DNA from: Gammaproteobacteria bacterium
Lineage (GTDB): Bacteria; Pseudomonadota; Gammaproteobacteria; Pseudomonadales; Azotimanducaceae
Assembly: GCA_002728675.1 (NCBI GenBank)
Contig: PBVL01000054.1
Span: forward strand, 1 to 54,606
Reading direction: 5' to 3'
DNA length: 54,606 nucleotides
Positions 1 to 18,553 of this stretch are shown in pieces. Each line of letters starts with the position of its first letter. Positions within the stretch are counted from its first letter, which is position 1. The notes below the pieces were generated by a model. The model ran no database searches and was not told the DNA's origin. It saw only the letters and a program-made list of their open reading frames with translations. Made by a program: the position numbers and the translations under genes.

Positions 1-1
1 C

Positions 2-1637
2 TCGAGCGCGGCGAGCATCGACTTCTTCAGCGTTTACGATCTCAACGCCCGAATTCTGATGAACGAGTACCCACCTGAGGTTTTGCCGAGGTCTTCGGTC
101 AGGACGAGGTGCCCATTGCGCTCTACGAGTTCGGGCGCCTTGCAGAACACGTGCTGCTTGAGGCGCTGGGCAACTGCCACTTTGCCAATCAGTCGGAAGT
201 GCACTTCACGATCATCGACTCGGGTGAGAACCGCGCACAGGCGCGCCTGATGCAGGAGAGTTCGAACCTCACGAGCATCTGCAAGATCGACTACGTCGAG
301 ATGGCGCTGAACGCGCAGGAGTTCAGCACGCTGTCCGAGTCGCTGTTGCAGAGCGTGACCGAACACGTCGTATGCTCTTCGACCGACGAGCGCAGTCTGG
401 AAGTCGCCCTGCTGCTGCGCAAGCGGGCGGCCAACGCGCCTATCCTCGTCCGGAGGCAGCAGTCGAGCGGTCTCGCGCAGTTGCTGGAATCGAACCGCGG
501 ACTTCCGGAAATCCCCGACGGCCTGTACCCGTTTGGCATGCTCGACGAACGCTCAGCTACGAGAACATCCTCTCCGACCGACTCGACGAGCGTGCGCAGG
601 CGTTCCACGGTGAATATCTGCGCAGGCACGCCCAGAAGTTCGATGCCGAACGCAGAATTGACCCGGCGCACCGCACGCGGGAAGAACTGACCGAACCGCT
701 GCGCAACAGTAACCGCCTCCAGGCTGACCACCTGGAGGGCAAGTTCCGGGCGGTCCGCTGCGCCCTGATCACAGGTGACCATGCGCCCGGCTTCGAGTTC
801 AGGGAGAGCGGGGCGGAAATGCTCGCGATCATGGGGCACGAACGCTGGAGAGCGACCAGATCTACAACGGCTGGCGGGCAGGCCCGGAGCACATAGAAAA
901 CGCCAAGATCAACCCGCTCGCAGTGCGCTAGGGCGAGATGAGCGATGCCCAGAGGGAAGAAGAGATCGATGCGGTGCGCGACCTCCCAAGGCTGCTGTGG
1001 GAGTCGATGGGAATCGGGCTTCGACGCGAGTACCTGATTGGGGTCACGGGTCACAGGCCGCACAGACTGGGTGACAGTGCGGCGCTCGAGAACGCGGTCA
1101 TCGAAACCCTGGAGACGCTGCAGTCCCAACATGCGGACAAGCGAATGGTGCTGATGTCACCGCTCGCAGAAGGGTCGGATCGTTGCAAAAATCGCGATGG
1201 AACGTTTCGGGATGGGGCTCGTTGTTCCGCTGCCGCTGCCCTATGAGCTGTATCAGAGCGACTTCGAGACCTGGGAATCCATGGCCGAGTTCAGGGAACT
1301 CGTCGGAAAGGCGGATTACTACTTCGAACTCCCGATGCGCTTCGGCACGCTCGAGGAACTGGCAAGAAAAAACTCCGGCGACACCAATCCCCTGCGCGAT
1401 CAGCAGTATGCGTTGGTCGGCGCGTATGTCGTCGAACGGTGTGATGAACTGATCGCGGTCTACGACGGAGCGCCGGCGGCGGGAGAAGGGGGAACGGGGC
1501 AGGTGGTCGAATGGCGCCGACAGGGATTCGTGCCCGAGGCCTATCACATCAAGGGGAGTTTCTTCTCGTTGCCGGAGATCACACAGCCGATGGTGATCGA
1601 CCCGATGGGCGTTCAGGAAACAGCGGGATGCAGTTGA
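2..1637 (+). pseudogene. Decayed TrkA-N-like / RyR domain / SLOG-like nucleotide-sensing protein, 5' end cut by the window edge
   Basis: Consecutive fragments in frames 2,1,3,2,3 join into one protein: ...SIDFFSVYDLNARILMNEYPPEV / FAEVFGQDEVPIALYEFGRLAEHVL...LYPFGMLDE / SYENILSDRLDERAQAFHGEYLRRHA...NRLQADHLEGKFRAVRC...MGHERW / ESDQIYNGWRAGPEHIENAKINPLAVR*GEMSDAQREEEIDAVRDLPRLL...GVTGHRPHRL...MSPLAEGSDR / VAKIAMERFGMGLVVPLPLPYELY...QYALVGAYVVERCDELIAVYDG. Breaks near 85, 550, 848 and 1181, plus an in-frame TAG at 929. Confidence 0.7.
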
Positions 1638-1648
1638 CCCCGACAAGA

Positions 1649-1687
1649 ATACTGTATATTTATACATTCTGTATAAATTGCCAGTAT
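1649..1687. promoter_or_regulatory. Tandem LexA (SOS) boxes upstream of imuA
   Basis: CTGTATATTTATACAT (1652-1667) and CTG-TATAAATTGC-CAG (1669-1684), close to the CTG-N10-CAG LexA consensus, flanked by ATACTG...CAGTAT arms; about 100 nt upstream of imuA. Confidence 0.85.
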
Positions 1688-1785
1688 TAACCCCTGACAC
1701 CAACATGGGCTCCACCGCCCCTGAGATTCATCGCTGTCATTGACCGTCCCCTGGGACCGTCTGACATCGCTGAACTCAGCTTCAG

Positions 1786-2604
1786 ATGATGATCCCGTCT
1801 TCCCTCAACAAACTCATGCAGTCGACAGGAATGTGGCGAGCGTCGCATCTCGACGACGCCAACCGTGCATGTACACCGACCGGATACTCAGAACTCGACA
1901 GCCATCTTGCGGGTGGAGGCTGGCCTTCGGACGGGCTGACAGAGTTATTGCACGACCATGTCGGCATCGGCGAAATGCGTCTGATCGGCCCGGCCCTGTC
2001 ACATCTCACCAATCATGAAAACCGCTGGATCGTATGGGTGGCGCCGCCGTTCATTCCCTATGCGCCCGGTCTCTCGGCGATGGGGATCGATCTGCGTAAC
2101 GTCCTCATCGTGCGCCCTGGGGAGCGGCGTGATGTGCTCTGGGTCATCGAACAGGCGCTGGCATCGCCCAGTTGCAGCGCAGTGCTTGCCTGGGAGAAAC
2201 GTCTCGACCCCAGGGATCTGCGCCGACTGAATCTTGCGAGCCGGGAAGGCAAGACATGGGGGGTGTTGTTCAGACCGGCACACGCAGAGCGTGACCCCTC
2301 CCCCGCAGAACTTCGGCTATCGCTCGAAGGCAGACGTCAGACAGATCACGCCCCGCACCGAACCATTGACGTGCAGATTCTTAAACGCAGAGGCGGCTGT
2401 GCAACAGGTCCCTTCACAGTGAACCTGCTCGATTCCCTCGACCAGGCAATGCTGAATCTCGACTACTGTGATCTTCCGTTCGAGGCGCCACCCGACGCTC
2501 CCGGGCACAGCCTGACGCTGGTCGGGCATGCCGGACACATGAGTCTCGACGCTCTGCTCGAAACAGGAGTGTCCGGGATGACGTCTGAGAAACATCATGT
2601 CTGA
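1786..2604 (+). CDS. imuA: Translesion synthesis-associated protein ImuA
   Basis: 272 aa ORF: TGYSELDSHLAGGGWPSDGLTELLHDHVGIGEMRLIGPAL...IVWVAPPFIPYAPGLSAMGIDLRNVLIV; overlaps imuB by 8 nt and lies behind LexA boxes. Confidence 0.88.
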   Translation: MMIPSSLNKLMQSTGMWRASHLDDANRACTPTGYSELDSHLAGGGWPSDGLTELLHDHVGIGEMRLIGPALSHLTNHENRWIVWVAPPFIPYAPGLSAMGIDLRNVLIVRPGERRDVLWVIEQALASPSCSAVLAWEKRLDPRDLRRLNLASREGKTWGVLFRPAHAERDPSPAELRLSLEGRRQTDHAPHRTIDVQILKRRGGCATGPFTVNLLDSLDQAMLNLDYCDLPFEAPPDAPGHSLTLVGHAGHMSLDALLETGVSGMTSEKHHV

Positions 2605-4099
2605 AAAGAACGCGGCGTCTGAACGCAAAAGCGCCCTGTCGAGGGACTCCGCCGGACTCTGGCTCTGTCTTCACTTCAACGCGCTTCCTCTCGAAGTGTT
2701 CTCACGTGGATTCAAGGAGCCCGATCATCCGACTGTCGTGACAGAAACAGCCCGGGTTGCCTGGCTGAACGTTGCAGCTGCCGAACACGGGATTCGCATC
2801 GGCAGCAGTATGGACACAGCGTTTACGCTTGCGGAGTCGGTTGCATCGTTCGAACGCGACACAGCCCGGGAGCTCTCTACGCTCTCACAGCTTGCGGGAT
2901 GGGCATATCAGTTCACTCCCAATGTCTCGACATCGCCACCGCACAGCCTGCTGCTCGACGTGTCGGGATGCCTGAAGCTCTTCGGTGGGCTGGGCAATCT
3001 CACGAGAAAGATGCTCGATGGGTTGAGTTCGATGAAATACAGCGTCGTGTTCGGAGCGGCGAATACCCCGATGGCTGCATTGTTGCTCGCGAAGTCAGGA
3101 CTTGCACCGAAAGACTTTCTCAAAGCGCCTGTCGCCCAGCTCGAGGTCGACCCCCGGGTCGTCGATTCTCTTGCTCAGCTTGGGATGCGTAACCTTGGAG
3201 ATGTCCTGAAACTTCCGGGAGGCGGCCTCTCGCGCAGGTTTGGAGTGTACTTCTCGGATTACCTCGCACGACTCACGGGAGCCCGCCCGGACACGCGGAA
3301 GTACGTCAACCCTGAACCCCGTTTCTTCAGCGAACTCGTGTTCCAGAGTGACGTGACGAACGTGGGCTCAGTCGTGTTCCCGATGCGCAGACTTCTTGGG
3401 GAACTCACCGAATACATGCATGGCAGACAACTGTCGACGCGCCATCTGACCTGGACACTCGATCACAGGAGCCACCCTGCCAAATCGCTCAACGTGTTCA
3501 CTGCAAGTCCGGAGAACGATGCGCAACTGTTCTTTTCCCTGACCCAGCTTCAGCTGGACAAGATCACCGATGTCAGGGAACTTGACTCGGTTTCCCTCAA
3601 GGTCACCGAGTTCGAGTCTCTGGTCACTTCAACGGGTGATCTGTTCGAAGGTAAACGGTTCCGCGGTCCCGACGGCAAAGTCAGCCAAGCGGGAGCGCAC
3701 AGGCAGGAAGAGCACCTGCTGAATCTGCTCCGCGCAAGACTTGGACCCAGAACATGCTTCGGCCTGTCCGAAGCGAACGATCACCGCCCGGAGAAAGCAT
3801 GGAAAACAGTACGCCCTGACATCAAAGACTATTGGGAACCTGAAGAGCCGCACGCCCTGCTCCGCCCTTCGATGCTGCTTGCGGAACCGCAAATGCTCGA
3901 CATCCGTAACGGACTCCCGTGGCACAGGGGTCCGCTTGAAATCGTGCGGGGTCCCGAACGTATCGATTTCGGTTGGTGGGATGCCGGGCTCGATCGCGAT
4001 CTGCACAGGGACTACTACATCGCGAGAAAAGAGAACGGTGCCCGTCTCTGGATCTATCAGACGAACTCAGAATGGTACCTGCATGGTCTGTTTGCGTGA
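2597..4099 (+). CDS. imuB: ImuB, Y-family polymerase-like mutasome protein
   Basis: 500 aa: LWLCLHFNALPLEVF..., RLTGARPDTRKYVNPEPRF, C-terminus RDYYIARKENGARLWIYQTNSEWYLHGLFA typical of ImuB. Confidence 0.9.
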   Translation: MSEKNAASERKSALSRDSAGLWLCLHFNALPLEVFSRGFKEPDHPTVVTETARVAWLNVAAAEHGIRIGSSMDTAFTLAESVASFERDTARELSTLSQLAGWAYQFTPNVSTSPPHSLLLDVSGCLKLFGGLGNLTRKMLDGLSSMKYSVVFGAANTPMAALLLAKSGLAPKDFLKAPVAQLEVDPRVVDSLAQLGMRNLGDVLKLPGGGLSRRFGVYFSDYLARLTGARPDTRKYVNPEPRFFSELVFQSDVTNVGSVVFPMRRLLGELTEYMHGRQLSTRHLTWTLDHRSHPAKSLNVFTASPENDAQLFFSLTQLQLDKITDVRELDSVSLKVTEFESLVTSTGDLFEGKRFRGPDGKVSQAGAHRQEEHLLNLLRARLGPRTCFGLSEANDHRPEKAWKTVRPDIKDYWEPEEPHALLRPSMLLAEPQMLDIRNGLPWHRGPLEIVRGPERIDFGWWDAGLDRDLHRDYYIARKENGARLWIYQTNSEWYLHGLFA

Positions 4100-4168
4100 G
4101 CGTTCCCCTTCGCGCCTCCTTGTGTTCGATCGGGATAGCCTTTAATTTCGCGCCGAACAAAATCACCG

Positions 4169-4697
4169 ATCGAGTCTGCCCAGGAGGCCCAGGAGGACGG
4201 ACAGGAACAGTTTCGGTCTGGCTTGAGCAGTTCAAGAGCGTCCTCAACTTCGACGGTGGGGATCTCGAAACCTCGTACAACGCACTCAACGCAGAGCACG
4301 AAGACAGTGTATCTGCCGCTGAAGAAATCTCCGACCGGATCGACAGCTTCGAGTCGGTCGCCGAAGCGCTGTTCACCGAATGGCAGGCCGAGCTGGACGA
4401 GTACACGAGCGCCTCGCTTCGGCGCGACAGCGAACGCCAGCTCCGCGCAACGCGCGGGCGTTACGAACGCTCATGACCTCCATGCGCGGTGCCGAACGCA
4501 GCATTGATCCGGTGCTCGCAAGCCTCAAGGACAACGTGCTCTACCTGAAGCACAACCTGAACGCGCGAGCCATCGCATCGCTGCGCGGCGAACTCGCAAG
4601 CGTCAACAGCGACGTGACCCGCCTGCTCGAAGCGATGAATGCTGCGATCAACGAGTCCAACGAGTTCATCGCCGAACTTCGCAGCAGCGGCGCCTGA
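4169..4697 (+). pseudogene. Frameshifted DUF2959-family gene
   Basis: Frame 2 IESAQEAQEDGQEQFRSGL, then frame 1 EQFKSVLNFDGGDLETSYNALNAEHEDS...SASLRRDSERQLRATRGRYER, then frame 3 LMTSMRGAERSIDPVLASLKDNVLYLKHNLNARAIASLRGELASVNSDVTRLL; breaks near 4221 and 4467. Confidence 0.7.
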
Positions 4698-4833
4698 AGA
4701 CACAACCGTCGCCGAAAGCGGCCGGCCGGCATGCGACGCTCTGCAGGCGACGTGCTGATGTCTTGCCTTCCTCACCGTGACCGCGCACATACCCCGCGCG
4801 CCCCGCTGCCACGTCGTGGCGGGGCCGCCCCTC

Positions 4834-4842
4834 TGCTATAAT
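4834..4842 (+). promoter_or_regulatory. Extended -10 promoter element upstream of the acyl-CoA carboxylase operon
   Basis: TGCTATAAT (TGn-TATAAT) about 40 nt upstream of the 4881 start; AAGGA ribosome-binding site just before the ATG. No convincing -35. Confidence 0.5.
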
Positions 4843-4880
4843 CCGCGACCCTTCAGAAAACCTCTATTTCTCAAGGACTT

Positions 4881-6620
4881 ATGAGCAACTCCAAACAGTC
4901 CGATGACGATATCGTCCCGACAGTCGCGAACCCTTTCCGGCGCGACGAGAAACCCAACCTCAGGGTGCCTGGTCAGGTAGACACCACTCCCGGTGCTTAC
5001 GAGGAGACGCTGAACGACGCACATGCCCTGCAGGAGCGGCCGTTCGTCTCCGCGGGCATCAACAACATTCAGCGCCAGCACCTGAAAGGCCGCATGACCA
5101 TCTGGGAGCGGATTCGCGTTCTGACCGACGAAGAACCGCTGGTCCTCTTCCAGAACTGGGGCGAGAACCTCGACGGTGCGTCACTTGTCACCGCGATCCT
5201 CCGTATCGACGGGCGCGACGTGGCGCTCTATGGACACGACTTCACCATTCGCGCGGGCTCGATGGACGCAACGAACGGTAAGAAGCTCGCCCGTCTTTTC
5301 GAGCTTGCCGGCAAACGCAAGATCCCGCTGATCGGGATGAACGACTCGAGCGGCGCATTCGTGCCTGCCGGGGTCGGCGGCCTCGACGGCTATGCCGAAG
5401 CCTTCACGGCCCTGCGCAAGATCAGCGGGGTCGTGCCGTCGATCATGTGCATGTTCGGCTTCAATGCCGGCGGCGGCTCTTATCTCCCGCGACAGGGCAG
5501 CTTCCTGATCCAGCCGCACGACACCTTCTTCGGCCTGACCGGCCCCGGGGTCGTGAAGTCCGTGTTGGGTGAAGACATCAGCGCGGACGAGCTTGGCGGT
5601 CCCGGCGTGCACGGCCAGACCGGTGTCACCGACATCGTCGTCAAGGACGAAGTCACGGCACTCGAGACGGTGCGGGAGTTGCTGCGCTACCTGCCGGACA
5701 ACAACAGTCAGTTCGCGCCGCGGCAGGAGACATCCGATCCCACCGACCGCAAGACCTGGGATATCGACATCCTCTTCCGCAAGACCTTCAACTCGCCAAC
5801 GGGTTTCAACACCCCCTTCGATGTCAGCATTGTGATCCAGCAGTTGTGCGACCACGGCGACTATTTCGAGATTCAGCCGGAGCGGGCGCGGAACACCATT
5901 ACCTGCTTTGGTCGCATAGGCGGTCACGTCGTCGGCTTCGTCGCGAACAATTCGGCCGTTGGATCGGGCCAGATCGACATTCATGCTGCCTACAAGAACG
6001 CGCGGTTCATCCGGTTCTGCAATCTGTACAACATCCCGGTGATCTTCATGGAAGACACGACCGGCTTCCTGCCGGGCCGGGAGCAGGAATCGGAAGGCAT
6101 TGTGCAGGCTGGCCGGGCCATGCTCGATGCAATCATCGACCTGCGCACGCCGCGTTTCCTCGTATTGCTGCGCAATGCCATCGGCGGCGCGTACGCTTCG
6201 TACAACAACTACCCCACGGGCGCGGACCTAGTGGTCGCGCTTCCCACCACACGGGTTGCCGTAATGGGGCCGCCGGGTGTCGAGTTCGTCTACAAGGACG
6301 AACTGCGTGGCGCCCGGGGCAGGCTGGCTGCGCGGGTTCAGGAAGAGACAGCCCGCCTCGAAGCGGATGGCGCGGAACCTACGGCTGCCGCTGCGGAGGC
6401 CCAGGCGATCGCCCAGGGCGAGTTGCACCAGGTCGAGGCAGAGCTTGCCGCACGCTATGAGAAAGAACTGATGAACCCACGCGAAGCGCTGAGCCTCGGT
6501 TCCGTGTCACAGATCGTGATGCCCGCCGATCTGCGGCGCGTGCTTGCCCAGCACCTGGAGTTCCATCTTCGCAACTACACACCCGAACCGCTCAACGCCG
6601 TACAGAGGGAGTTCCATTGA
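4881..6620 (+). CDS. Acyl-CoA (probably propionyl-CoA) carboxylase, carboxyltransferase subunit
   Basis: 579 aa carboxyl_trans domain: [83 protein letters not shown] overlap with the next gene. Confidence 0.85.
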
Positions 6621-9508
6621 ACCGGTCACCGCAACCCGGGTCCGAGCCCGGAGAACATGCGGCCGCCCAGGATGGCGCGGCACACACTCTCGTCCATCGT
6701 GACCGACGCCTTGCGGGTCGCGCTTCGGCCTGGGTCCGCCAATTCGACGCGAGTCACCTCAAGCCGCTCATCATCTGTCGCGGTCCAATCCGCAAGGAGG
6801 CGATGGACGTCTTCGAGGAAATGGGCATCGACGGCTACGGAATCCTCCTGTCCGAGAAAGACTCCATCACCTACTCAAATGCGCTCGCGCCGGAACTGAG
6901 GCAGCTGACCGATCCCCACAGAATCCACCGCGTCCCGGACTACACCGGCGCGTCCCGTGAAGAGCGTGACGAGCGCATCGCACAGATTATCGCGATCGCA
7001 CGCGACAACGGCTACGACTCCGTCTTCGCCGGGTACGGCTTCATGGCGGAGGACGAAACGATGGTCGGCGCGCTGGAAGCTGCCAGCCTGACCTTCATTG
7101 GCCCCTGCGCCGCGACCGTCCGCAGGGCCGGCAACAAGGACCTCGCGAAGCGCACGGCGATCACCGCCGATGTCTCCGTCACCCCGGGCGTCGACAATGC
7201 GACGACGCTGACCCTGCTGCGCCGCGCACCCGATGCCGGGGCGTTGCGGGCTCTGGTGGCCGAATACGACCTGAACGTGGACCCGCACACCTGGGATACC
7301 GGAACGGTTGACGACATGGCCGACGCGGTCCTCACTGCTTCCTATGCGAAAGGCGTCGATCTGTTCAACGTCGATGCCCTCGGGGAAGAACTCGAACGGC
7401 AGGTCGCCGGCCTGTATGAGGCAAATCCCGACTACCGGATCCGGCTCAAGGCGATTGGTGGCGGCGGAGGCAAAGGCCAGCGCATTCTTACCTCGCCCCG
7501 CGACCATGCGGGTGACGACAAGGCCCGTGCGGCCGCCGCGGCGGCGGACACACCCGCCGCGCTGCGCGAGATCCTGTCTGAAGTCAAAGCCGGCGGGGTT
7601 GGCGACAACAAGAACGTACTGGCCGAACTGAACATCGAAACCGTCCGTCACCAGGAAATCCAGGTGATCGGCAACGGCGAGTGGTGCGTCACGATTGGCG
7701 GCCGGGACTGTTCGCTGCAGAACAACGAGCAAAAGCTTCTCGAAGTCTCGGTGACGGTCGAAGAACTGGCGGAGGCCGCGGCGGCAGCCCACGAAGCGGG
7801 TGACGCAGAGAAGGCGACGCGTCTCGGGCACGAGCGTGAGATTCTGGAAGCGATGGAAGCTCAGGCGGTTCGTTTCGGCAAAGCCGTCGGGCTGAACTCC
7901 GTGTCGACGTTCGAGTGTATCGCCGACGTCGACCGGCATTTCTTCATGGAGATGAACACCCGAATCCAGGTTGAGCACCGCGTCTCCGAGTTGTGTTACG
8001 CCCTGAGATTTGCCAATCCGGACGACAGCAGCGACGCACTCGTCGTCGAATCACTGGTTGAACTGATGGTCCTGCTTGCGGCGCACGGCTCCCGCCTGCC
8101 GGAGCCGCAACGCATCCGCCGCGAGACCTCCGCGCTAGAGATGCGGCTGAACGCCACCGATCCGGCACTCCGCCCCCACGCGGGCGGCATCATTGCCAGC
8201 TGGTCACCGCCGTCCGACACGGAGATCCGTGACGATCAGGGAATCAGCCTGCCCAACCCGGATACCGGCGTCTTCGTGCGCTACCACGTCGCCGGCGCCT
8301 ACGACTCGAACATTGCCCTGTTACTGACCACCGCATCATCCCGGCAGGACAGCTACGAGCGCATGGCCGAGATCATTCGCACGACGCGGCTGACGGGACC
8401 GAACCTCGCCACAAACCTGAATTTCCACTACGGACTGCTGCACTGGCTGCTTGGCCAGGACGCGTGGGCGCTGCCGACCACCGCCTTCGTGCTGCCCTAT
8501 CTGACGGCCGTCGGGATGCTCAAGCGCGAGGTCGACAATCTCGACTTCGTCTACGCGTACGACCAGTTGGTGAACCGGGAGATTCTGCAGTCGGAATCCG
8601 GCGGCGATGCCGCGGTCGGCATCAAACGCGCGGCGGACGCCAAGGCAAGTCTGCTCTCGAGGGCGCTGCACCGTCTGTTCGACGAGCCGCACCTGCTCGC
8701 GGGCTGGCTCAGTCGGAACCGGTCGCGCTTCAGCGTCACGGACGGCAAGGTGCACTGGCTCGTGAACGTGATCGACGTGGTCGCGGACAGCTACCACTTC
8801 CTCAATATGGAGCGCAGCAGCGGTAACCCGGCGCTGTACCAGATCTGGGACCACGATGCCGACCTGCTCCATGACGCGCTGGATTTCTATGCTGAAGTCC
8901 AGAGTCGTCTCGGCACTGACGACTGGGCCACGGTAGCGGCCGCGCTCGACGGCGCGTGCCCCGCCAGCTTCTCGAGCGACGAGTGGGCCGCCGCCCGCGC
9001 GGCGCACCGCGGTTATCAGACCGGCCTCGACGTATTCTCGATTCTGCCGTATGCCGGACACGCGACGGGCTTCTTCGACCTTCGCTGCGAACCGGACCTG
9101 ACTGTGCACATTCCCGAAACACTCCGCGACGCCGACCTGCAGGCGCAGATGACACGTGTTCTGTCACCACCGCCCGCCGCGCCGGCCGACGAGATCATCG
9201 CGGAGACGGGCGGCATGTTCTATTCGCGCGAAGCGCCGGACAGACCGCCGTTTGTCGAAGCAGGGACTCATTTCGAAGTGGGCGATCCGCTCTACATCAT
9301 CGAGGTGATGAAGATGTTCAACAAGGTCCACGCGGAGTTTGAGGGGACCGTCGATGCGGTGCTGACGGATGACGACGGCACGATCATAACCAAGGGACAG
9401 TCGCTCTACAAAGTCACACCCGACGAGGCGGTCACGGTAGAATCGCCAGCCGACATTGCCGCACGCCGCCACGCGAATACGCGCAACTTTCTGGATAGCC
9501 AAGCCTGA
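6617..9508 (+). CDS. Fused biotin carboxylase / biotin carboxyl carrier protein subunit
   Basis: 963 aa: ATP-grasp loop [29 protein letters not shown]-terminal biotinyl motif [19 protein letters not shown]. Confidence 0.85.
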
Positions 9509-9518
9509 CAGGACGCTC

Positions 9519-9953
9519 ATGATCATTGGACTCGACCACGTCGCAATCGCTGTACCCGACCTGCAGGAGGCCATTGCACGCTTTCTCGACGACTTCGGGC
9601 TGACCTATGAAGGCTCGGAGGATGTCGAAGCAGCGGGCACCACGACCGCGTTCTTCCCGGTTCCGGGCACCAGCATCGAGCTTGTTCATCCGTTGAACGG
9701 CGGCGGCCCCCTGGCCAAATACCTCGACAAGAACGGCGGCGGAATTCACCACATCTGCTTCCGTTCCGACGACGTCGAGGCTGACATGGTCCGACTTCGC
9801 GAGAAAGGCTACCGGCTGCTATCGGACGAACCGCAACCGGGCGCTCACGACACTAAGACCGTATTCATCCATCCGAAGTCGTGCGGAGGCGTGCTGATCG
9901 AGATTGCCGAACACACGCACGGCGCGGAAGGAACCGCTCACGCGGCGGGCTGA
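9519..9953 (+). CDS. mce: Methylmalonyl-CoA epimerase
   Basis: Glyoxalase-fold: MIIGLDHVAIAVPDLQEAIARFLDDFGL...GGGIHHICFRSDDVEADMVRLREKGYRLL...KSCGGVLIEI. Confidence 0.9.
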   Translation: MIIGLDHVAIAVPDLQEAIARFLDDFGLTYEGSEDVEAAGTTTAFFPVPGTSIELVHPLNGGGPLAKYLDKNGGGIHHICFRSDDVEADMVRLREKGYRLLSDEPQPGAHDTKTVFIHPKSCGGVLIEIAEHTHGAEGTAHAAG

Positions 9954-10075
9954 TCCGGCCACCTCCGGGGAAATACTCAAAGACACGGTCTGCGGGAATA
10001 AAGCTGATATTCTCGCCGAAGACCCCAATCTGATCGCGCTGACGCTCCCTGGCGACGCGGCTCGAGGACCGCAAC

Positions 10076-12226
10076 ATGGCTGACTACAAACCAAAACCGC
10101 AAACGCTCGACGACTGGGAGGACGCGGCATCCAGGCTGCTGAAGGGCAAACCCTCCGCGAGCCTCGTGCGCGGCACGTCGGAGGGGATCGACGTCAAACC
10201 CCTCTACACCTCCGCCGATACGGAGGCGCTCGACTACGCTGACACCATGCCCGGGCTGGAACCGTTCGTTCGGGGCCCTCAGGCGACCATGTACGCCGGA
10301 CGCCCCTGGACGATCAGGCAATACGCGGGTTTCTCGACTGCGGAAGAGTCGAACGCCTTCTACCGCCAACTGCTGGCGGAAGGCGGCCAGGGTATCTCCG
10401 TTGCCTTCGACCTCGCGACTCATCGCGGTTACGACTCCGACCACGAACGTGTCACCCACGACGTGGGCAAGGCGGGCGTCGCGGTGGACTCCGTCGAGGA
10501 CATGAAAATCCTGTTCGATGAGATTCCGCTCGACACCGTATCGGTCTCGATGACCATGAACGGGGCCGTTCTGCCAATCATGGCGGGCTACATCGTCGCC
10601 GCGGAAGAACAGGGCGTTGCCCAGAGCGCGCTGTCGGGAACCATCCAGAACGACATTCTCAAAGAGTTCCTCGTTCGCAATACCTACATCTATCCGCCCA
10701 AACCCTCGTTGCGGATCATCGGCGACATTATCGCCTACTGCACCGAGCACATGCCGCGGTTCAACACGATCTCGATCTCCGGCTACCACATGCAGGAGGC
10801 GGGAGCCGACTCCGCGCTGGAGCTTGCCTACACGCTGGCTGACGGAAAGGAATACATCCGTACCGCGCTTGCCGCCGGCCTCAGCATCGACGACTTTGCG
10901 CCGCGCTTGTCGTTCTTCTGGGGCGTCGGCATGAACTTCTATATGGAGATCGCGAAGATGCGCGCGGCGCGATTCCTGTGGGCGAAGGTCGTCGATGAGT
11001 TCGGACCGCAGAATCCCCGGTCGAAAATGCTGCGTACACACAGCCAAACATCCGGCTGGTCGCTGACCGAGCAGGATCCGTACAACAACGTCGTCCGCAC
11101 GACGATCGAAGCGATGGCGGCGGTCTTCGGCGGCACCCAGTCGCTGCACACCAACGCGCTGGACGAAGCGATCGCGCTCCCGAGCGAGTTCGCGGCACGG
11201 ATTGCGCGAAATACCCAACTCATCCTGCAGGAAGAGACGGGCATTACCGATGTCGTCGATCCCTGGGGCGGCTCCTACATGATGGAGTCGCTGACGCAGA
11301 AGATCGCGGATCGTGCCTGGGAGCTCATCAACGAAATCGAAGAGGCCGGCGGCATGGCGCAGGCGATCGAGTCGGGGCTGCCCAAGCTGCGCATCGAAGA
11401 GTCAGCGGCACGCAAACAGGCCCGCATCGATCAGGGCGAACAGGTCATCGTCGGGGTCAACAAATACCAGCAGGCGGAGCAGGACGAGGTCGATGTCCTG
11501 AAGATCGACAACGAAGCCGTTCTCCGTGTGCAGCTGGACCGTCTGCAGGAGATTCGCGGCTCGCGCGATCAGGCCGCTGTCGACGCCGCGCTTGCCGCGA
11601 TCACGGCCTGTGCAAAAGGCGGCGACGGCAACCTGCTGGATCTCGCCGTCAAGGCGACGCGCCTGCGCGCGACCATCGGTGAAATCAGCGCGGCAATGGA
11701 GTCCGAATTTGCCCGTTTCAAGGCATCAACCCAGACCGTGTCCGGCGTCTACGGCGAGTCGTTCGCGCAGGACGAGGACTGGCAAAGCATCGCGACCGGC
11801 GTCCGCGACTTCGAGAACCGCGAAGGGCGCCGCCCGCGCATGCTGGTCTGCAAGATGGGCCAGGACGGTCACGACCGCGGCGCGAAGGTCATCGCGACCG
11901 CCTTCGCCGACGCGGGGTTCGATATTGACCTCTCGCCGATGTTCTCGACACCGTCCGAAGTCGCGCGTCAGGCAATCGAAAACGACGTGCACATCGTCGG
12001 CGTCTCGTCACAGGCGGGTGGCCACTCGACACTGGTCCCGCAGTTGATCGATGAACTGAAAGCCGAGCAGGCGGAAGACATCATCGTGATCGTCGGCGGC
12101 GTGATCCCGAAACAAGATTACGCGGCGTTGGAGCAGGCCGGCGTTCGCGGCATCTTTGGCCCGGGCACGCCCATTCCGGTTGCGGCACGCCAGGTGCTGG
12201 ACGCCGTCTCCGCTACGCGGCAATGA
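10076..12226 (+). CDS. Methylmalonyl-CoA mutase (B12-dependent)
   Basis: 716 aa: [53 protein letters not shown]12-binding motif [22 protein letters not shown]. Confidence 0.95.
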
Positions 12227-13176
12227 TCGACACGGATGCCCTGCGGGCCGGTAATCGGCGGGCACTCGCACGCGCGATCACGCTGATCGAGAGTTCCCGG
12301 GAGGAAGATCGGACCGCAGCCCAGGAACTGCTTGCCGAACTCCTCCCCGACACCGGCAAGAGCATTCGCCTCGGCATCAGCGGTGTCCCGGGGGTCGGCA
12401 AGTCCACGTTCATCGAAGCGTTCGGCGTGTACCTGGCCAAGCGCGGGCGGCGGGTTGCCGTACTCGCGGTGGACCCCAGCTCACCGATCCACGGGGGCAG
12501 CATTCTTGGTGACAAGACCCGCATGTCGGAGCTGTCACGGCTCAACAATGCCTACATTCGGCCTTCCCCCACCTCTGGCGCCATTGGTGGCATCGCGGAG
12601 AAGACCCGCGAGACGATTCTGCTGTGTGAAGCCGCCGGTTTCGACGTCATCCTCATCGAGACGGTGGGCGTCGGTCAGTCCGAATATGACGTCGCAGCGA
12701 TGGTCGACTGCTTCATGCTGCTGGTGGTTCCGAACGCGGGGGACGAACTCCAGGGCATCAAGCGCGGCATCACCGAACTGACCGACATCCTCGTTGTCAA
12801 CAAGGCCGACGGCAACGCCGTCGCACAGGCGGAACAGACCAAACGGTACTACGAGAATGCATTTCACATTCTGCACAGCAGCGGCGGCTGGCAGCCCCGC
12901 GTGCTGACCTGTTCGGCGCTCGAGAAAACCCAGCTCGCCGACGTCTGGGACACCCTGCAAACCTACCTCGCGGAGACGGCGGACACGCTGGACGCCCGTC
13001 GCGCGGGCCAAAACGTCGACTGGATGCGCCATCTCATCCAGGACATGTTGCTCGACAAGCTCACCCGGAGCGAAGCCGCCCAGAACCGGTTGCCGGACCT
13101 CGAAGACGGCGTCCGCCGCGGCGATTTCACGCCCTACGCGGCGGCAGCGGAGGTTCTCGACCTGCTGGATCGCTGA
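12223..13176 (+). CDS. meaB: Methylmalonyl-CoA mutase-associated GTPase MeaB
   Basis: 317 aa: [63 protein letters not shown] overlap with the mutase. Confidence 0.93.
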
Positions 13177-13454
13177 AGGCGCGGACGAGAGGCCCACGTC
13201 TGACTGACTGCGGATCCGGACCACCGTAATGACGCTCTTCCGCGAACCCGCTTCAGTTCCAGGATGCGGGTACGTCGAGCGTCCGTCGGTACATGTATCG
13301 ATCTCGCATCACCGATCTATGGGATCGAGTTGCAGGCAGCGCTCCTTCGCAGGCAGGGTCCCGCGCACGGATATGAGACCACGAAGCAGTGGGATCAGCG
13401 CCGAAACGCCCCGGCAACGGCAAACCGTCACATGTGGTTTGCCTCGCACACCCG

Positions 13455-13495
13455 ATACTGTATATATTTACATGTACTGTACATATAACCAGTAT
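13455..13495. promoter_or_regulatory. Tandem LexA (SOS) boxes upstream of dnaE2
   Basis: CTGTATATATTTACAT (13458-13473) and CTG-TACATATAAC-CAG (13477-13492), again inside ATACTG...CAGTAT arms; ends about 10 nt before the dnaE2 ATG. Confidence 0.87.
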
Positions 13496-13504
13496 CCCGC
13501 CTTC

Positions 13505-16500
13505 ATGTCGGTACGTTACGCGGAACTCCACTGCATCAGCAACTACTCGTTCCTTCGCGGCGCTTCACACCCCGAGGAACTTGTCATGCGCGCAAGCGCC
13601 CTTGGTTACTCGGCAGTTGCGATCACCGACGAGTGCTCGATGGCGGGCGTTGTGAAAGGGCACATGGCCGCCGAGGAATGCGGGATCAAGCTGATCGTCG
13701 GCAGCGAATTCAGGCTCGAAGATCACAAACACCCGGACTCGGAACCCGTACACCTGGTCTTGCTCGCGCCATCCCGTGCAGCCTACGGTGAAATCTGCAG
13801 TCTCATCACAACGGGACGAAGACGGAGCGAAAAGGGCACCTATTCGCTCAGCCTCGACGATCTCGAAACGGGCCTTCACCAATGCCTCGCGATCTGGATT
13901 CCTCACGACTCAAAAGCTGACAGGGCGGCCGTTTCACCAGACCAGGGACAGCGCGAGCACTCTTTCGCCCCGCTGTTGAGGCAGGGTACACGGCTGCGCA
14001 GGATTTTCGGCGATCGGTTGTGGCTGTCGATCCAGGCGTTCCCTGACGGGCGGGAACGCGCCCGCTACGAGCAGGGATTCACGCTCGCCAAACTGCTCCG
14101 GCTTCCGCTCGTCGCAAGTGGAGACGTCCACATGCACGTTCAGGAGCGCAAACCGTTGCAGGACGTACTGTCCGCAGTGCGCATGGGGCAATCGGTACGC
14201 GTCGCCGGAAGGCTCCTGGCGCCAAACAGAGAGAAGTACCTTCGCCCGCTTCCTGCTCTGGAGACCTGGTATCCGGAGTCAATGCTCAATGAGTCTGCAC
14301 GCATCGCGGATCTCTGTGATTTCAAACTCACCGAACTTCGCTACGAGTATCCGGAAGAACTTGTGCCGCCTGGGCTGACCCCCACGAAGTACCTGCGCCA
14401 ACTCACCTATGCAGGCGCCGAGCGGCGCTGGCCTGACGGCATCAGGCCCGATGTCCTCAAGATCATCGAACACGAACTGACCCTGATCGAGGAACTGGAA
14501 TACGAGTTCTACTTCCTGACCGTGTTCGATGTCGTCCACTTCGCGCGCAGCCAGAACATTCTGTGTCAGGGACGCGGTTCTGCGGCGAACAGCGCGGTCT
14601 GCTATTGCCTTGAGATCACCGAGGTCGACCCGGCCCGTGTCTCGCTGCTGTTCGAACGGTTCATCTCGAAGGAACGCAACGAACCGCCGGACATCGACGT
14701 TGACTTCGAACACTCACGACGTGAGGAAGTCATCCAGTACATCTACAAGAAATACGGTCGCAACCGGGCGGCGATCGCAGCAACTGTCATCACCTACAGA
14801 CCAAAAAGTGCGGTGCGCGACGTCGGCAAAGCACTCGGGCTCGACCTGACGCTGGTCGATCATCTGGCGAAGTCGCTGTCCTGGTGGGACAAGAAGGAAC
14901 ATCTGCTCGAACGGTTCGAAGAGAACGGCATCAACGGCAACAGCCCCATCGTTGGCCAGTTCCTGACGCTCGTTCGGGAAATTATGGGGTTCCCGAGACA
15001 CCTCTCTCAGCACGTCGGCGGTTTCATCATCTCGAGCGGGCCGCTTGCACAGTTGGTTCCCGTCGAGAACGCGGCAATGCCCGACAGGACGATCATCCAG
15101 TGGGACAAATACGATATTGAAGCGCTTGGTCTGCTCAAGGTCGACGTACTCGCGCTCGGAATGCTGACCGCAATCCGCAAGAGTTTCGATCTGTTCAACG
15201 CCTACCGCGGGACGTCGATGACGATTGCACACATCCCTCCCGAAGACCCGCTTACCTACAAGATGCTCCAAACCGGCGACAGCGTCGGAGTGTTTCAGGT
15301 CGAGTCGAGGGCGCAGATGTCGATGTTGCCGCGACTCAAGCCGAAAACGTTCTACGATCTCGTCATCGAGGTGGCCATCGTCAGACCGGGTCCGATTCAG
15401 GGGAACATGGTCCACCCTTACCTGAAGCGACGATCGGGGGAGGAACCCGTCACCTACGCAAACGATGCGGTCAGGGGTGTACTGGAACGCACCCTGGGTG
15501 TTCCGATCTTCCAGGAACAGGTCATCAAGCTTGCTGTCGTTGCTGCAGGTTTCACTCCCGGCGAAGCCGACCAACTCAGGCGAGCGATGGCGGCCTGGAA
15601 GAGCAGGGGCGGGCTTGAGGTGTTCGAGGAAAAGCTTGTCCAGGGGATGCTCGAGCGTGGTCACGAGCGCGAATTTGCGGAGCGCATTTTCGAGCAGATC
15701 AAAGGTTTCGGTGAGTACGGCTTTCCCGAATCGCACGCGGCGAGTTTTGCCCTGCTCGTCTACATCTCCGCATGGATCAAGCGCTACGAGCCTGCCGCGT
15801 TTTACTGCGGTCTGCTCAACAGCCAGCCCATGGGATTCTATTCCCCCTCCCAACTCGTACAGGACGCCCGTCGGCACGACATTGAGATTCGACCCGTCGA
15901 TGTTCTGTACAGCGCATGGGAATCGACACTCGAGAAACCGACCTATCGAAACGGTCAACTGACCTCACAACAGCCCGCCCTGAGGCTGGGAATGAACCGG
16001 ATCAAGGGCATGCGCGAGGACGCCGCGCAGCGCATCGTACTCGCGCGTGAACGCAGAACGTTCAAAGACGTACCCGATCTCTCACGACGATCGCGCCTCG
16101 ACCGCGGCGAACTTGCCAGACTGACAGAGGGAGGCGCGCTCAAAACCCTGTCAGGTCATCGCCATGAGACTCACTGGCAGGCCCAGGGACTGCTGCCTGA
16201 GGCGCCTCTGTTCCCTGTGAATGACGGCGCGCAAGGAACCAGTGCGAAAACCGGTCCAGGTGATGGAAGAAGTACAGGTGCAGATGCAGGAAAAGGCACA
16301 GGCACCGATGCACCGAACCAAGGTGACCCGATACGCAGGGTCGCTGAGCCCTCGCAGGGTTACGGGGAACGGGTCGAGTTACCCGCCCCGAGCGAAAATG
16401 ACGACCTTCGCGCCGACTATTCATCGCTGGGATTGACGCTTGGACGCCATCCCATGGCGATCCTTCGCGACTCGGGAGGACCGTTTCGCCACTGCAGAAA

Positions 16501-16813
16501 GGCGGATGATCTGCCAAATCTGAGGCACGGCTGCTTCATTCAGGTCGCGGGTATCGTCACAGGCAGGCAGCGTCCAGGATCGGCGTCCGGCGTGATCTTC
16601 CTGACCCTCGAAGATGAGACGAACAACATCAACGTCGTGATCTGGACGAGCGTGTTGGAGAAATATCGCTCCGCTGTCGTGCAGGGGCGATTACTCAGAA
16701 TCAAAGGTGTCATGGAGCGCCAGGAGTCCGTGATTCACGTGATCGCCGGACACGTGGAGGACCTGAGTCAGTACCTCAACCACTTTTCACTGAAGTCCCG
16801 GGACTTCCGCTGA
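13505..16813 (+). CDS. dnaE2: Error-prone DNA polymerase DnaE2
   Basis: MSVRYAELHCISNYSFLRGASHPEELVMRASALGYSAVAITDECS..., PPDIDVDFEHSRREEVIQYIYKKYGR, C-terminal OB-fold. The in-frame extension to 13229 runs through the LexA boxes and is unlikely to be coding. Confidence 0.93.
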   Translation: MSVRYAELHCISNYSFLRGASHPEELVMRASALGYSAVAITDECSMAGVVKGHMAAEECGIKLIVGSEFRLEDHKHPDSEPVHLVLLAPSRAAYGEICSLITTGRRRSEKGTYSLSLDDLETGLHQCLAIWIPHDSKADRAAVSPDQGQREHSFAPLLRQGTRLRRIFGDRLWLSIQAFPDGRERARYEQGFTLAKLLRLPLVASGDVHMHVQERKPLQDVLSAVRMGQSVRVAGRLLAPNREKYLRPLPALETWYPESMLNESARIADLCDFKLTELRYEYPEELVPPGLTPTKYLRQLTYAGAERRWPDGIRPDVLKIIEHELTLIEELEYEFYFLTVFDVVHFARSQNILCQGRGSAANSAVCYCLEITEVDPARVSLLFERFISKERNEPPDIDVDFEHSRREEVIQYIYKKYGRNRAAIAATVITYRPKSAVRDVGKALGLDLTLVDHLAKSLSWWDKKEHLLERFEENGINGNSPIVGQFLTLVREIMGFPRHLSQHVGGFIISSGPLAQLVPVENAAMPDRTIIQWDKYDIEALGLLKVDVLALGMLTAIRKSFDLFNAYRGTSMTIAHIPPEDPLTYKMLQTGDSVGVFQVESRAQMSMLPRLKPKTFYDLVIEVAIVRPGPIQGNMVHPYLKRRSGEEPVTYANDAVRGVLERTLGVPIFQEQVIKLAVVAAGFTPGEADQLRRAMAAWKSRGGLEVFEEKLVQGMLERGHEREFAERIFEQIKGFGEYGFPESHAASFALLVYISAWIKRYEPAAFYCGLLNSQPMGFYSPSQLVQDARRHDIEIRPVDVLYSAWESTLEKPTYRNGQLTSQQPALRLGMNRIKGMREDAAQRIVLARERRTFKDVPDLSRRSRLDRGELARLTEGGALKTLSGHRHETHWQAQGLLPEAPLFPVNDGAQGTSAKTGPGDGRSTGADAGKGTGTDAPNQGDPIRRVAEPSQGYGERVELPAPSENDDLRADYSSLGLTLGRHPMAILRDSGGPFRHCRKADDLPNLRHGCFIQVAGIVTGRQRPGSASGVIFLTLEDETNNINVVIWTSVLEKYRSAVVQGRLLRIKGVMERQESVIHVIAGHVEDLSQYLNHFSLKSRDFR

Positions 16814-16826
16814 CCTGCTCGCTCCG

Positions 16827-17345
16827 TCAGGACCGCAGAACAATCCTCGCATTCACCAGCCCGGGTCGATCCTGACGATCGAGTGAAATCTGCTGCACGG
16901 AGATGCCTTCCCTCGTCTCGAGTTCCTGCAGCCAGCGAATGAGGCTGTCAAACGCAACCCCGTCGAACCAGACGCTGACGTTCCCCTCTCCTTCCGGCTG
17001 CAGCCGATTGGGCTTGATCTGGTGTTGCTGCGCTGTGCGCGAAACCCGGGTCAGCAGCGTCTGACCGGTCGGTCCTGCCCTTCTCGCGGTTGTGCCTGAC
17101 TGTTGCGACGCCTGGGCACGCGTCGATACCATCCATGTCAGCAGATCACGATTTCGGTCCCTGTCTGCACGCGCGTCTTCCGCGAACGTCTGCATCGGTT
17201 CCCACACGCCGAAATAGCAGACCACAACCGAAAGGAACACCGCGAGCGACTTCGCTGCAAACCGATCCCTGGGCTCGAGCTGATTGAAGCGATCGAGACC
17301 CTGTCGGACCGGAGGCATTGCGGCAATACGGTCCGTGAGACTCAT
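16827..17345 (-). CDS. gspM: Type II secretion system protein GspM
   Basis: 172 aa, N-terminal TM, ...QHQIKPNRLQPEGEGNVSVWFDGVAFDSLIRWLQELETREGISVQQISLDR; last gene of the gsp operon. Confidence 0.85.
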   Translation of the reverse strand: MSLTDRIAAMPPVRQGLDRFNQLEPRDRFAAKSLAVFLSVVVCYFGVWEPMQTFAEDARADRDRNRDLLTWMVSTRAQASQQSGTTARRAGPTGQTLLTRVSRTAQQHQIKPNRLQPEGEGNVSVWFDGVAFDSLIRWLQELETREGISVQQISLDRQDRPGLVNARIVLRS

Positions 17346-18553
17346 TGCAGCCGCACCTTGATGCTGCCTTTCACCTGATCTTCAGCCTGATTGATCGTGC
17401 CGATCTCGGCAGTCAGGCCTGCGTCCCCAAGCGTCTGGGAGAACCCGACAAGTTGCTCACTGCGCGGCGCCTCGAGCTGCAGGATCAGGTCTCCGCGTGA
17501 CTCGTTGAAGTTGACGTTCTGCGCATCGAGGCTCGACCCAGGGAGGTGCCGAACGGCTGCGCCGAACACCTGCAGAAAGCCGCCCTCCTCCCCACCGCCG
17601 CCACGCAGGTGCGACTGCCACCTGGCACGCACGTCGCGCACGTTACGGTCCTTGGGGAAAGTCCTGGCATAGAGCGCGCGCGCGTCGGCATCGTACTGGT
17701 CCGCCAGCGTCCCGAGGTAGAGCCCTTCTCCCGCGAAAAGGAGCACCTGAAGCGCGAATACCGCCACGCCCAGTTTCCAGACGAGTGACCACCCGTTGCT
17801 GTCATCCGCAGTGACTTCATCGACCTCATACTCGCCCTGCAGAAGATCCAGTTCGCTCCGGCCGTAGTTTGCACACAGGAGATCGAAGCCTTCCGCGTCT
17901 GAAACGTCGACCTGCGCCGCGCCGTCCGTTTCGGCTTCCAGTTGGGCAACCAGGACTTCTCCGGCATCACCCCCGTCGGCGCATTTCACCACGCTGACCG
18001 CCGCATCTTCCGGCAGGAGGCCAAGTGCCGTCCCCGCAAGCGCCGTTTCGAGCGAAAGCCCGCTCGCGGGCCCCGTCTTGACGTGAACCCGTCCGTGCTC
18101 GATCAACACGCTCGTTGTGCCATCGAACGGGACGCACAACGTGTCGAGCTTCATTGAGCCCGGGGCGAGGCCGGCAGCCGACAACCGTTCGAGAATCTGG
18201 TCGAGCGTCCCCCGTTCGATAGCGGCGACGCTGATCTCACCATCGGGGAGCCGTTCACCAATCGCGAAATGGCATTGCTCGACCTCGGTCGCGAGGTCGT
18301 CCTCCACCATGTAGGGAACGGCCTGTTGGATCTGCCGACGCTGCCGGGTGGGAATGTCGGCCGATGTGAGCAGTACGGTTTCGCCCGGTAACAACGCGCT
18401 GACGCTTCCCGACCAGCTCATTTCCGCCGTGCGCTCGGCGAACGCTTCCGGGGGACCTTCGCCGCGCAGCTTCACGTTTCCCTCGCCGTCGTACATCAGC
18501 CATTGCAGCGAGTCCGACTCCGGGAAATAGCGTACGAAAAGCCTGTCAGGCAT
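17342..18553 (-). CDS. gspL: Type II secretion system protein GspL
   Basis: 403 aa with actin-like N-terminal half and single TM; position between K and M. Confidence 0.85.
   Translation of the reverse strand: MPDRLFVRYFPESDSLQWLMYDGEGNVKLRGEGPPEAFAERTAEMSWSGSVSALLPGETVLLTSADIPTRQRRQIQQAVPYMVEDDLATEVEQCHFAIGERLPDGEISVAAIERGTLDQILERLSAAGLAPGSMKLDTLCVPFDGTTSVLIEHGRVHVKTGPASGLSLETALAGTALGLLPEDAAVSVVKCADGGDAGEVLVAQLEAETDGAAQVDVSDAEGFDLLCANYGRSELDLLQGEYEVDEVTADDSNGWSLVWKLGVAVFALQVLLFAGEGLYLGTLADQYDADARALYARTFPKDRNVRDVRARWQSHLRGGGGEEGGFLQVFGAAVRHLPGSSLDAQNVNFNESRGDLILQLEAPRSEQLVGFSQTLGDAGLTAEIGTINQAEDQVKGSIKVRLQ

Follow-up and report, generated by a model that had tools for sequence, protein, structure and literature searches.

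Separated imuAB and dnaE2 mutasome genes with individual predicted LexA operators in a clade of uncultured gammaproteobacteria

Results

Organization of the imuAB and dnaE2 locus

The genes imuA, imuB and dnaE2 encode DNA-damage-induced mutagenic polymerase functions and usually form one operon. In the stretch of DNA analyzed here (hereafter the window, 54,606 nucleotides), imuA-imuB (1786-4099) and dnaE2 (13505-16813) occupy the same strand with 9.4 kb between them, and very probably represent two LexA-controlled units that arose when the mutasome was split in the ancestor of a clade, with dnaE2 acquiring its own operator-promoter and the contents of the interval changing later. Judging from the genomes compared, the split appears to be an old, clade-wide arrangement, and the propionyl-CoA carboxylase/methylmalonyl-CoA mutase operon that fills most of the gap appears to be only the window lineage's occupant of the interval.

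The gene imuA (1786..2604, + strand) was assigned with the NCBIfam equivalog model NF033429 (215.5 bits against a cut-off of 150), and imuB (2597..4099, +), a Y-family-like mutasome subunit, with the Pfam IMS model over its cut-off and with an ImuB tree, in which the window protein clusters with imuA-linked ImuBs. Inspected by eye only, this ImuB has an N-terminal WLCLHFNALP without the usual aspartates and a TGDLF motif; a PDB sequence search with it returned no Y-family alignment. The error-prone polymerase gene dnaE2 (imuC; 13505..16813, +) scored 1422 bits against a cut-off of 939 with NF004225, and its product retains the catalytic aspartates, with PDIDVDF and KVD aligning with E. coli Pol III alpha. 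The start at 13505 is consistent with the homologues; the same frame remains open as far upstream as 13229, but that additional stretch contains the operator described below.

The single-operon imuABC layout is absent at this locus, as imuB is followed by a gap of 9409 bp rather than directly by dnaE2. The gap holds a frame-shifted DUF2959 pseudogene with a decayed N-terminus (4150..4697, +), recognizable as two fragments matching Pfam PF11172, one at 4216-4473 and the other, in a different frame, at 4380-4694, and five metabolic genes on the same strand: pccB, the carboxyltransferase of an acyl-CoA carboxylase (4881..6620, Pfam Carboxyl_trans); a pccA-like biotin carboxylase/carrier fusion (6617..9508, Pfam and NCBIfam); mce, methylmalonyl-CoA epimerase (9516..9953, TIGR03081 over cut-off); mcm, methylmalonyl-CoA mutase (10076..12226, NF006944 over cut-off); and the GTPase gene meaB (12223..13176, NF006958 over cut-off). 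These reading frames and family matches bear out the separation, with a pseudogene and five metabolic genes between the halves, as it had been described in a reading made from the sequence only. The fusion protein is unusually long (963 aa) and patchily distributed in the family, with a close relative in about 30 of 151 genomes. Downstream, gspM and gspL (16827..18553, - strand) are convergent with dnaE2, in a neighbourhood that is conserved in several relatives and was found by tblastn in L149, L158, L044, L046 and L051. Upstream of imuA, window positions 1-1637 contain nothing but short, interrupted frames whose family matches are weak or absent, and which resemble decayed genes.

The host genome (G000) is a MAG of 4.66 Mb; among named records, its relatives are uncultured gammaproteobacteria, of which several carry the label Pseudomonadales. 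Its 252 contigs and estimated contamination of 7.57% could suggest that the separation is an artefact of assembly or binning; nevertheless, this explanation is scarcely credible, as 24 other genomes have the two halves separated in the same way, the locus lies on a 102-kb contig with a conserved dnaE2-gsp junction, and base composition shows no sharp step.

LexA operators and promoters

Each half of the mutasome is preceded by a predicted tandem LexA operator. That of imuAB (1652..1684, +) reads CTGTATATTTATACAT-T-CTGTATAAATTGCCAG, with boxes at 1652-1667 and 1669-1684 and a start-to-start distance of 17, and that of dnaE2 (13458..13492, +) reads CTGTATATATTTACAT-GTA-CTGTACATATAACCAG, with boxes at 13458-13473 and 13477-13492 and a start-to-start distance of 19. 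A genome-wide search for the tandem pattern gave two matches in 4.66 Mb, which are these two operators, assigned one to each half by the sequence-only reading, and the reversed control pattern gave no match in the whole genome. A consensus scan placed a sigma-70-like promoter before dnaE2 (13439..13468, +; TTGCCT-18-TATATT, 9/12), and the -10 element of this putative promoter sits within LexA box 1. The gene layout, the operator sequences, the distribution across the clade and the relation between dnaE2 boxes and gene order described below are shown; that LexA binds these sites, that the genes respond to the SOS signal and in which order the evolutionary steps took place are inferred.

The genome contains one LexA-family gene, and the region upstream of it (L211, contig C41) carries an imperfect tandem operator of like style, CTGTATATAATCCCAC-TA-CTGTATATCCAACCAG. 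Tandem boxes are thus a trait of the SOS promoters of this organism, and not a mark of a common imu control region. At position 1501 of L212 there is a LexA box whose core is perfect (CTGTATATTTGCACAG), about 130-160 bp 5' of an apparent mutS, which is not a usual SOS gene.

Gene order in relatives

Both DnaE2 and ImuB were mapped in 151 family genomes, DnaE2 was later sought in all 207, and DNA was obtained for 76 loci. Among these, 34 are contiguous, with imuB directly 5' of dnaE2, and 25, the window included, are linked splits in which the co-oriented imuAB lies upstream at a distance of 2.9-26.5 kb; imuB falls outside the fetched stretch in 16 further loci, and one locus is divergent. A contiguous cassette in relatives, which the sequence-only reading had suggested looking for, is found in 34 of the 76 loci, with G002 among the nearer relatives, but the split itself is common to the clade. 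In four genomes (G128, G149, G073 and G062), the imuB matches contain one internal stop codon and may be pseudogenes or errors.

In relatives, the interval between imuB and dnaE2 often holds genes for GPx, a SpoU methylase, DUF4397, a TauD dioxygenase and CaiB, followed by variable genes. The carboxylase operon was not found in the imuB-dnaE2 interval of any relative compared; it lies elsewhere in those relatives that have it, with the order pccB-pccA-mce-mcm-meaB conserved in many. The earlier proposal that a contiguous cassette was later split and that dnaE2 gained an operator is upheld by these data, but its assignment of the carboxylase-mutase operon as the cause is not supported, as the split extends to relatives throughout the clade, in which different genes fill the interval and the metabolic block is located elsewhere. 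Functional coupling between the carboxylase and the SOS response was likewise rejected, given that the block occupies other loci in relatives and that no LexA box was seen 5' of pccB in the sequence read.

The SpoU gene found in the interval of relatives has an orthologue elsewhere in the window's genome, on contig C227; this fits a replacement of older interval content by the carboxylase operon, with the caveat that C227 may be a contaminant of the MAG. That the whole ancestral interval moved to C227 was considered and is weakly supported: the SpoU orthologue and a TauD gene are there, and the contig has neither DUF4397 nor a clear CaiB orthologue. Membership of DUF2959 in the ancestral interval is suggested by one relative, G040.

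The dnaE2 operator follows gene order

The presence of a LexA box before dnaE2 follows a simple rule: dnaE2 carries a box if it is separated from imuB and none if the two are adjacent. None of the 34 contiguous loci has a box within 350 bp of dnaE2, whereas 24 of the 25 linked split loci have one 5' of dnaE2 within this distance, and the remaining one (G087) has it at -455. Where imuB lies beyond the fetched stretch, a dnaE2 box is present in 13 of 16 loci, and was not found within 350 bp in G037, G142 and G148. The background of the box scan was 2 in 2459 random windows from the same loci.

Other records retrieved by DnaE2 similarity follow a comparable pattern. Eight with an imuB-dnaE2 gap greater than about 700 bp, from Lysobacterales/Xanthomonadales, Rhodocyclaceae and Sulfuritalea, Halieaceae and one planctomycete, include five with a box before dnaE2, the three boxless ones being uninformative because the LexA motifs of distant groups may differ; the contiguous cassettes among these records lack a box before dnaE2 in all ten cases. 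In distant lineages, too, imuAB and dnaE2 are split in this manner and the LexA boxes are generic, which comes close to the pattern (the same split with unrelated operator sequences) that the sequence-only reading had itself set against its account.

These data also bear on the idea that dnaE2 is expressed mainly from transcripts that start in the carboxylase operon and read through, without effective SOS control. The genes share a strand, and a terminator-like site between meaB and dnaE2 was not found, but directly 5' of dnaE2 a promoter-like site and a tandem LexA operator overlap, and split relatives have boxes at the same place despite other upstream genes, some in the opposite orientation. 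We consider read-through as the main mode of transcription to be improbable.

Similarity of the two operators

The two tandem operators of the window are identical at 31 of 40 positions. The imuA operator is about as similar to dnaE2 operators of other genomes (31/40 with G040 and G008; 30/40 with G029, G063 and G081), and the dnaE2 operator is nearer to dnaE2 operators of other genera (35/40 with G029; 33/40 with G095, G063, G040 and G008) than to the local imuA operator. Similarity within the genome therefore does not exceed similarity to operators of other genomes, and the dnaE2 operator of the window is most simply read as an inherited dnaE2 operator; the window's two operators resemble each other because each is a LexA site.

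Duplication of one control region, which had been suggested earlier as the source of both operators, would account for their common tandem layout, for first boxes identical at 14 of 16 positions and for the imperfect halves ACAT and CCAG found in both. However, equal first-box identity is attained by 28% of between-genome box pairs, the imuA operator reaches the same 31/40 with dnaE2 operators from G040 and G008, the left flanks agree at only 5 of 26 nt, the spacings are unequal (17 versus 19), and lexA in the same genome shows the same imperfect tandem style. With similarity at the generic LexA level, different spacing and unlike flanks, duplication was rejected as highly improbable. Selection for matched induction, the other suggestion, is compatible with the data insofar as selection would keep a LexA box rather than match the operators to each other.

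Phylogeny and the position of G002

The DnaE2 proteins of all split loci form a single clade (SH-aLRT 99), the ImuB tree likewise groups the split loci in one clade, and a minimum of two changes between contiguous and split states is required on both the DnaE2 and the ImuB trees. The window joins the split relatives in the ImuB tree with support of 88/95. This placement, the resemblance of its dnaE2 operator to those of split relatives and the persistence of the relatives' SpoU gene elsewhere in its genome all argue against an independent event in the window lineage, in which the carboxylase-mutase operon would have entered a contiguous cassette and the dnaE2 operator would have been gained locally. 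Such an event could explain why the interval content of the window resembles that of no relative, and why G002, one of the nearer relatives, has an unbroken cassette followed by the same gsp genes; we regard it as unlikely.

G002 is the sole contiguous member within the split clade, where it pairs with the split G029. The genera of the window, G002 and G029 are represented by one genome apiece. The DnaE2 tree favours a re-joining in G002, and the careful ImuB tree places the G002/G029 pair basal in the clade. For a split-only clade without G002, the DnaE2 data gave no rejection (p-AU 0.17) and the ImuB data a mild one (p-AU 0.026). Given the weakly supported placement of the window and of G002/G029, two or more independent splits may have occurred; the likeness between the dnaE2 operators of G029 and the window favours a common operator origin with loss in G002. 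The split may be reversible, the G002 cassette having re-joined amid split relatives with loss of the dnaE2 operator, a reading that we hold tentatively and at somewhat less than even chances. The 172-bp gap between imuB and dnaE2 in G002 (L149) contains no LexA box. It does contain a long inverted repeat that is almost perfect (GGTCGGATGGAGGGAGGTGCCACCTCCCGTCCGACC) and may be a scar of re-joining.

Discussion

Our preferred explanation begins in the ancestor of one clade of the family, where genes would have ended up between imuB and dnaE2 of a formerly contiguous cassette. Acquisition of a LexA operator-promoter by dnaE2 would have kept both halves under one repressor, and the contents of the interval would then have turned over by lineage, leaving in the window a degraded DUF2959 gene and the propionyl/methylmalonyl-CoA operon. 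Upon DNA damage, cleavage of LexA would derepress the two promoters and allow the three proteins to assemble in trans.

The same three proteins and control by a LexA box characterize the imuA-imuB-imuC (dnaE2) cassette of the Pseudomonas putida type, from which the window differs in having more than one operon, no lexA2 and a separate operator for dnaE2. Its boxes correspond to the gammaproteobacterial LexA box CTGT-N8-ACAG, although each has one imperfect half, and they occur in tandem, also at the organism's own lexA. Split imuABC genes with separate SOS boxes have already been described: a review (PMC3901139) notes nearly every arrangement of the imuABC genes, among them dispersed loci with an SOS box apiece, and cites Mycobacterium tuberculosis, in which imuA'-imuB and imuC (dnaE2) occupy two loci, both under LexA control. 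In contrast to M. tuberculosis, the halves in the window's clade lie on the same strand 2.9-27 kb apart, the first gene is imuA and not imuA', and sister lineages carry contiguous cassettes. The window therefore represents a well-sampled new clade of a known kind of arrangement.

Taken as a natural series, these loci illustrate how a stress operon can be broken up with the separated gene coming under the same repressor. They also carry a warning that metabolic genes lying between the two halves do not imply functional coupling. If the cassette of G002 did re-join, the regulatory autonomy of dnaE2 would have been both won and lost along with gene adjacency.
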